This document shows, piece after piece, positions 12,331 to 23,534 of a DNA stretch of 32,048 bases; position 1 is the stretch's first letter, and each line of letters begins with the position of its first letter. The notes under the pieces were generated by a model. That model did no database searches. It saw only the letters and a program-made list of their open reading frames with translations, and was not told the origin of the DNA. The DNA comes from Tissierellia bacterium (GTDB lineage: Bacteria; Bacillota; Clostridia; Tissierellales; Tepidimicrobiaceae): the NCBI GenBank assembly GCA_012798935.1, contig JAAZMG010000024.1, positions 1 through 32,048 of the forward strand, given 5' to 3'. The position numbers and the translations under genes are program-made.

Positions 12331-12531
12331 TAAAATTTAATATATTAGCTAAGAAAGGAACTAGTAAATAACAAAGTCTTTTTAGAGAGTCAGTGGTTGG
12401 TGGAAATTGACAAGACTTATTATTGAATCCAGCCTAGAGCTATTACATTATAAGTGAACCGAAAGGTTAACTAGGGTGGCAACGCGGGAGATACTCTCGT
12501 CCCTAATATTTTAGGGATTGAGAGTTTTTTT
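12331..12531 (+). ncRNA. T-box leader (Ser) with intrinsic terminator
   Basis: T-box core AGGGTGGCAACGCGGGAG; Stem I AAGTCTT/AAGACTT; candidate specifier TCC (12428-12430) in GAATCCAGCC; terminator ACTCTCgTCCCTAA-tatt-TTAGGGAttGAGAGTTTTTTT. Confidence 0.93.
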
Positions 12532-23042: not shown

Positions 23043-23394
23043 TATTTAAAAAAATAATAGACGGAGGGACCTTGTTTCATTTTAGCCCTCCGTCATTTAA
23101 AATAGAACCAACTACAGTTATTCCAACCCCTAATATCTTTTAAATTTTGAATCTGCAACTTTTTGTAACTCTCCTAACCGTCAAATACCTTACTACTCGA
23201 AAAGAACTTGACTTTTATTTTTTACCTTTACTCCTTATATTATTTTACTTCTTTAAACTACTTTCAACCCCATAAACTTAATACTTTTCAATTGACTCAT
23301 CTAAATAAATTTTGCAATCAAAGGAACTTATAGATACTTAACTGTATTCTTATATTTTACCTATTAGGTTGGAGATAACTATTAGTTCTATTTG
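23043..23394 (-). ncRNA. Candidate structured non-coding RNA with its own promoter and terminator
   Basis: Reverse-strand closing stem AAATAGAAC/GTTCTATTT + AGTTAT/ATAACT + CCAACCTAATA/TATTAGG(GG)TTGG, then terminator GACGGAGGG...CCCTCCGTC + T-tract; no ORF longer than a few codons with a good ribosome-binding site. Confidence 0.6.
23060..23094 (-). terminator. Intrinsic terminator of the candidate ncRNA
   Basis: 9-bp GACGGAGGG/CCCTCCGTC, then TATTATTTTTTT on the minus strand. Confidence 0.85.
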
Positions 23395-23399
23395 CCTTA

Positions 23400-23428
23400 A
23401 TTATATACCAAAATAAGGAATTTGTAAA
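23400..23428 (-). promoter_or_regulatory. Promoter of the candidate ncRNA
   Basis: Reverse strand TTTACA (23428-23423), 17 nt, TATAAT (23405-23400). Confidence 0.65.
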
Positions 23429-23534
23429 GAAAAATTTTGAAAATTCTAAAAACATCTTTTTAATATAGTGTTTGTATTATATATATACCCATTTATTTAG
23501 AATTAAACATATAAATATATACTTTTAAAAGGGA

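Follow-up and report, generated by a model that had tools for sequence, protein, structure and literature searches.

RNAIII/delta-haemolysin and SR1/SR1P are dual-function RNAs, stand-alone molecules of a few hundred nucleotides that carry a short ORF. Attenuators of the PheM/PheL/TrpL type encode an aromatic-rich short leader peptide ending at a terminator, and 6S RNA (RF00013) is a free-standing RNA whose ends pair. In the type I toxin mRNAs hok and aapA, the 5' and 3' ends interact over a long distance (PMC6733600). Here we describe an element that resembles each of these systems in part. Like VcdRP (PMC8672173), it is predicted to be a stand-alone RNA of a few hundred nucleotides with a short ORF; unlike the dual-function RNAs, to which it is unrelated in sequence and structure, it carries this ORF at its 3' end, where it forms one arm of a stem. 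Its resemblance to hok and aapA (PMC6733600) is that of a putative short mRNA, coding for a small peptide, with long-distance pairing between its two ends; its 5' end, however, binds the coding sequence rather than the Shine-Dalgarno region. With 6S RNA it shares end pairing and a free-standing layout, although it is much longer and encodes a peptide. With the PheM/PheL/TrpL type it shares an aromatic-rich short peptide that ends at a terminator, whereas many of its copies lack a regulated downstream gene and its stem joins the 5' end to the coding sequence instead of forming an antiterminator. The explanation we favour, and consider reasonably probable from sequence comparison, is that of a free-standing gene: a short mRNA, perhaps a dual-function RNA, for a conserved peptide of about 21 residues, in which pairing joins the 5' end to the coding sequence. 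Such a molecule would work like an mRNA controlled by long-distance pairing.

The element spans positions 23428-23060 on the minus strand, between feoC and pncB, in a window of 32,048 nucleotides (the whole stretch of DNA analysed) from a Tissierellia bacterium. Its features, in the order in which they are read on that strand, are:

23485-23508, minus strand: upstream promoter-like site P1, GTTTAA-N12-GGGTAT, sigma-B type by motif match
23400-23428, minus strand: sigma-A type promoter P2, TTTACA-17-TATAAT, 11 of 12 consensus positions matched
23366-23393, minus strand: 5' arm of the closing stem, AAAUAGAACUAAUAGUUAUCUCCAACCU, located at the predicted RNA 5' end or very close to it, pairing with 23100-23128
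23176-23365, minus strand: variable interior, C-poor and stop-rich, without conserved structure
23171-23175, minus strand: Shine-Dalgarno-like AGGAG, 12 nt from the TTG, a long spacing for a Shine-Dalgarno sequence
23093-23158, minus strand: 21-codon ORF with TTG start and TGA stop, MQIQNLKDIRGWNNCSWFYFK, in a conserved frame
23100-23128, minus strand: 3' arm of the closing stem, ORF codons 11-20, placed by fold, duplex and arm-swap energies
23060-23094, minus strand: intrinsic terminator, its stem starting within the ORF stop codon
22982-23010, minus strand: separate pncB promoter, TTGAAT-17-TATAAT, not part of the element

The first-pass annotation of this DNA had drawn a complete transcription unit here, and its signals are present as it described them: the promoter at 23428-23400, the terminator at 23094-23060 (GACGGAGGG/CCCTCCGTC followed by a T-tract) and, downstream of the terminator, a promoter belonging to pncB itself. 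From these signals, an RNA of about 340 letters would be transcribed. Among homologues the letters of the terminator stem vary and its pairing is retained, and pncB is preceded by a similar promoter site in those that were read. Elsewhere in the window, a T-box leader (RF00230, 100.6 bits) lies at 12342-12507 on the plus strand.

A cmscan of the region against Rfam 15 gave no match at the gathering score and chance-level matches only at a permissive threshold. The suggestion of a 6S-like RNA proved wrong: the region has no RF00013 match, and because a canonical 6S is encoded elsewhere in the window's own genome (G000:C129, 83 bits) the element is not the 6S gene; 6S was found in 60 of the 61 genomes searched. 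We found no description of the element in the open-access literature. As far as we could find it is undescribed, and it belongs to none of the families tested.

In a DNA search of 61 relatives, six other genomes matched clearly in the feoC-pncB gap. With covariance models R1 and R2, built from the 3' part of the element, matches appeared in 43 of 250 genomes of the window's order (E<=0.02, the weakest partly verified), spread over many of its families; a second order of Clostridia gave 35 of 249 genomes at the same threshold, partly weak. Fifty homologues from these two orders were checked. An order-level match (G161) and weak class-level matches (G437, G465 and G498) were read and discarded as chance. 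An exact DNA pattern matched Tissierella praeacuta DSM 18095, Tissierella sp. P1, Clostridium sp. Cult2 and several Tissierellia MAGs among GTDB genomes. A further model, R3, found nothing at E<=0.001 in 399 genomes of the phylum, a weak negative because R3 also missed the window's own copy. Presence is patchy, with apparent losses. In one genome (G007, L064 1501-1548) the element is missing and the terminator directly follows the feoC stop codon, as if the element had been lost by recombination at TTAAATGACGGAGG; this arrangement suggests loss in some lineages. Another genome (G018, L067 1501-1552) keeps just the terminator-end match. Two genomes carry two copies each, G243 (L154 and L155) and G733 (C1:364021-364187 and 367308-367449, about 3 kb apart on the same strand).

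Across most of the window's order the element is flanked by feoB/feoC and pncB; in some genomes its neighbours are flagellar genes, parA/noc-like genes or others, and in many second-order genomes they are, as named from their sequences, DUF1385 and thymidine kinase (tdk) genes. The downstream gene is convergent in many genomes, and both convergent and unrelated in G030, G054, G452, G555, G041, G025, G733 and others. Because the contexts vary and the downstream gene is so often convergent, the element is, to judge from its surroundings, an independent stand-alone gene and not a leader, and these contexts led us to reject a cis leader of pncB. Two earlier claims are thereby borne out: that the RNA is not simply the pncB leader, given pncB's own promoter and the unrelated neighbourhoods elsewhere, and that it is a stand-alone RNA of an undescribed family, since it lacks an Rfam match and is conserved with covariation in those neighbourhoods.

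The two ends of the predicted RNA fold together strongly. RNAfold gave -74.6 kcal/mol for 23396-23060, compared with -55.0 +/- 4.4 kcal/mol for shuffled sequences (z -4.4; 0 of 100 as stable), and the ends pair as had been drawn, with a slightly different innermost helix. The closing stem comprises 25 bp and leads directly into the terminator hairpin; its 5' arm/ORF duplex has an energy of -30.7 kcal/mol, and the best among 200 shuffles reached -24.6. In the 23 loci tested first, without exception, the last 11-12 ORF codons form a duplex of -25 to -38 kcal/mol with a segment close to the predicted 5' end of the RNA; each duplex is more stable than any obtained from 200 shuffles of that locus's 5' region, some narrowly. 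Swapping arms between genomes changed the mean energy from -31.9 (matched) to -18.3 (swapped) kcal/mol in 34 loci, and from -30.6 to -18.2 kcal/mol in 50 loci, of which the 16 second-order ones lean towards pairing in that their arms were located by it. The 5' arm/ORF pairing is present in every one of the 50 homologues examined. Pair types vary widely at most stem positions, with many compensatory changes, and RNAalifold on an independent alignment of 13 second-order sequences recovered the closing stem and terminator and nothing else, 16 of their 34 pairs having changed on both sides. That the long-range stem is not a product of chance, as had been argued, is confirmed by its recurrence in every homologue examined and by the strong covariation seen in arm swaps and RNAalifold. 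The 5' arm has a conserved internal loop, which in L202-L219 is rich in pyrimidines (CUCCC); it could form a pseudoknot with the purine Shine-Dalgarno run, and covariation between loop and run was not evident by eye in these sequences.

The interior enclosed by this stem is variable, with lengths of 106-574 nt among homologues, a C content of 9% and a stop rate of 0.106 per codon. The consensus fold of the 13 second-order sequences (RNAalifold) contains no conserved interior structure, and the smaller hairpins that had been pointed out there are not conserved among homologues. As to shared words, we found just mild enrichment of GTAGTA, TTAAGTAT, AGTATC and GATTTA. In G555 the interior (L145 1663-2057) is a 17-nt tandem repeat, AAGTTAGTAGTAAAAGT x 23.

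The first-pass annotation saw no convincing ORF and regarded the RNA as non-coding. Neither view survives, because the stem's 3' arm belongs to a short coding sequence, a 21-codon ORF that is conserved in frame and stops at the terminator base; the second half of this ORF is the arm. The first seven homologues each have, in their 3' part, an ORF that runs for exactly 21 codons up to the terminator, and many insertions and deletions lie upstream of it. Of 23 homologues, 22 keep this frame open; the other two frames have stops in 22 and 23 of them. Residue similarity in the codon frame is high across the 23 homologues (z 4.9; matched by 0 of 300 column-shuffled alignments), and also in the N-terminal half, which is not part of the stem (z 3.3); the C-terminal half is subject to coding and stem constraints at once, and the two can be told apart only in part. 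The peptide consensus is M..x-P-P/E-P-K..W-Y-S-Y-F-R-F-Y-F/Y. Second-order peptides show a clearer pattern: most copies start with ATG, and (D/N/S)PPK, 4-5 residues and WYSYFRFY(Y/F) follow; the spacer lengths of their ORFs differ exclusively by multiples of 3. Family f5 has IEPK...W.SC.KFYFK, the ORF is shifted and shorter in G027 and G043 (family f9), and N-terminal differences between clades are of a protein-like kind.

A purine run (AAGGAG, GGGAG or AAAGGA) is conserved upstream of the ORF in nearly all homologues, often 10-17 nt from the start codon, which is above the usual distance. Start codons are TTG, GTG or ATG, with TTG or GTG in many copies; G233 has no obvious candidate (GTA/ATT) and a few other copies have no clear start. 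The non-ATG or unclear starts, the long spacing and the shifted ORF of G027 and G043 count against the favoured reading, in which the ORF would be translated and the peptide may itself be the functional product. The peptides are polar and aromatic (GRAVY -1.6 to 0), without a membrane-like 15-residue stretch, and gave no convincing match in NCBIfam, Pfam, PADLOC, PDB, phages, plasmids or viral contigs. The pattern hits L069, L070, L078 and L080-L082 were rejected as chance.

The window has both P1 and P2. P1-type sites occur upstream in about half of 23 loci scanned, always with a 12-nt spacer, and among 50 homologues GTTTA-N12-16-(G/T)GGTA precedes the 5' arm in 29 (0.26 expected) and a sigma-A-type site in 13 (0.2 expected from shuffles). 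P1 is like the B. subtilis SigB promoters, with the consensus GTTTAA-N15(+/-2)-GGGTAT, except that its spacer is 1 nt below the published range (PMC9847131); it matches the published C. difficile consensus (PMC7494833) only partially. An rsbV-rsbW-sigma operon is present in relatives and follows gyrA wherever the contig extends that far. In the window's assembly (90% complete), only sigF and sigG of that sigma family were found, and a third sigma gene was not. Genome-wide, the P1 motif is no more frequent than reversed controls, and we rejected a genome-wide P1 regulon; control of the element by a sigma-B-type factor is, for the same reason, offered as a suggestion. In P1-only copies (L089 in G233, L090 in G246, L094 in G249 and L043 in G001) a hairpin that resembles a 5' cap lies between the promoter and the 5' arm.

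How might such a molecule operate? The Shine-Dalgarno region is about half unpaired (probability of about 0.5) with or without the 5' arm, a figure for sites that were located automatically and are imprecise in some homologues. Sequestration of the Shine-Dalgarno by the stem is not supported by this result; since the site is equally accessible either way, the stem is expected to act on elongation, as a hindrance, or on RNA stability, and not on initiation. After transcription, the 5' end of the RNA would fold back onto the last 11-12 codons of the ORF, and the stem between the ends, together with the adjoining terminator hairpin, would shield both ends from exonucleases and may stabilise the RNA. 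A ribosome could start, the ribosome-binding region lying outside the stem, and would have to unzip the stem to complete the peptide, which would free the 5' end. Stem and elongating ribosome would thus be mutually exclusive, and the pairing may gate peptide output. If a ribosome paused on PPK, it would extend roughly as far as the stem's foot.

The same geometry fits a regulatory or structural RNA that senses ribosomes, in which the ORF would serve mainly to let translation, or stalling at Pro-Pro-Lys or at the aromatic codons, open or preserve the stem, the active form is either the stable closed RNA or the 5' arm once released, and the peptide itself has no job. The stem is built exactly from the run of aromatic codons, 12-15 nt (4-5 codons) separate PPK from its inner end, so that a PPK-paused ribosome would come up against it at roughly that point, and the RNA is free-standing, without a downstream target in many genomes. 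The conservation of residues outside the stem and the protein-like variation of the N-terminus between clades speak against a jobless peptide, and we regard this reading as tentative and rather unlikely. That the conserved frame is an accident of conserved stem sequence in a purely non-coding RNA is harder still to believe: stem pairing does constrain the second half of the ORF, and start codons are often non-ATG, but the frame, the multiple-of-three length, the stop position and the residues are kept in two orders, also outside the stem.

A type I toxin-antitoxin-like module, in which the closing stem would silence a toxin mRNA until processing, as in hok and aapA, would account for the short ORF with 5'-3' long-distance pairing (PMC6733600) and for the patchy presence with apparent losses. 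It is improbable, because the peptides are polar and aromatic rather than hydrophobic and membrane-spanning, and because no antisense sigma-A-type promoter was found on the opposite strand of the 23 homologues, where 7 were expected by chance (a scan limited to that promoter type and to cis-encoded antitoxins); nor does the stem bury the Shine-Dalgarno. Least probable of all, and very much so, is a leader-peptide attenuator governing readthrough into pncB. Its aromatic-rich peptide, its stop at the terminator base and the presence of pncB downstream in most of the window's order would suit that role, yet the gene contexts disfavour it: pncB has its own promoter, and the unrelated, often convergent genes downstream elsewhere leave no conserved gene in the same direction. 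The consensus fold, moreover, offers no antiterminator alternative.

We therefore return to the short mRNA with 5'-end/coding-sequence pairing. It is a speculative further step, and an unlikely one, that the element represents a new class of ribosome-gated stand-alone RNA in two orders of Clostridia: with a 5' end that is antisense to the final codons of its own peptide, the molecule would be opened by ribosomes, whether passing or stalled, which would expose that 5' end and link RNA stability or activity to translation under stress. More generally, supposed non-coding RNAs can hide short conserved peptides that are easily missed. The coevolution of a 5' end with its own coding sequence, seen here in 50 loci from two orders, is a clean example, of a sort seldom documented, in which codons make up a conserved structure. 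At this locus, a seemingly non-coding RNA is probably the product of a gene for a small peptide, and its control structure is unusual.
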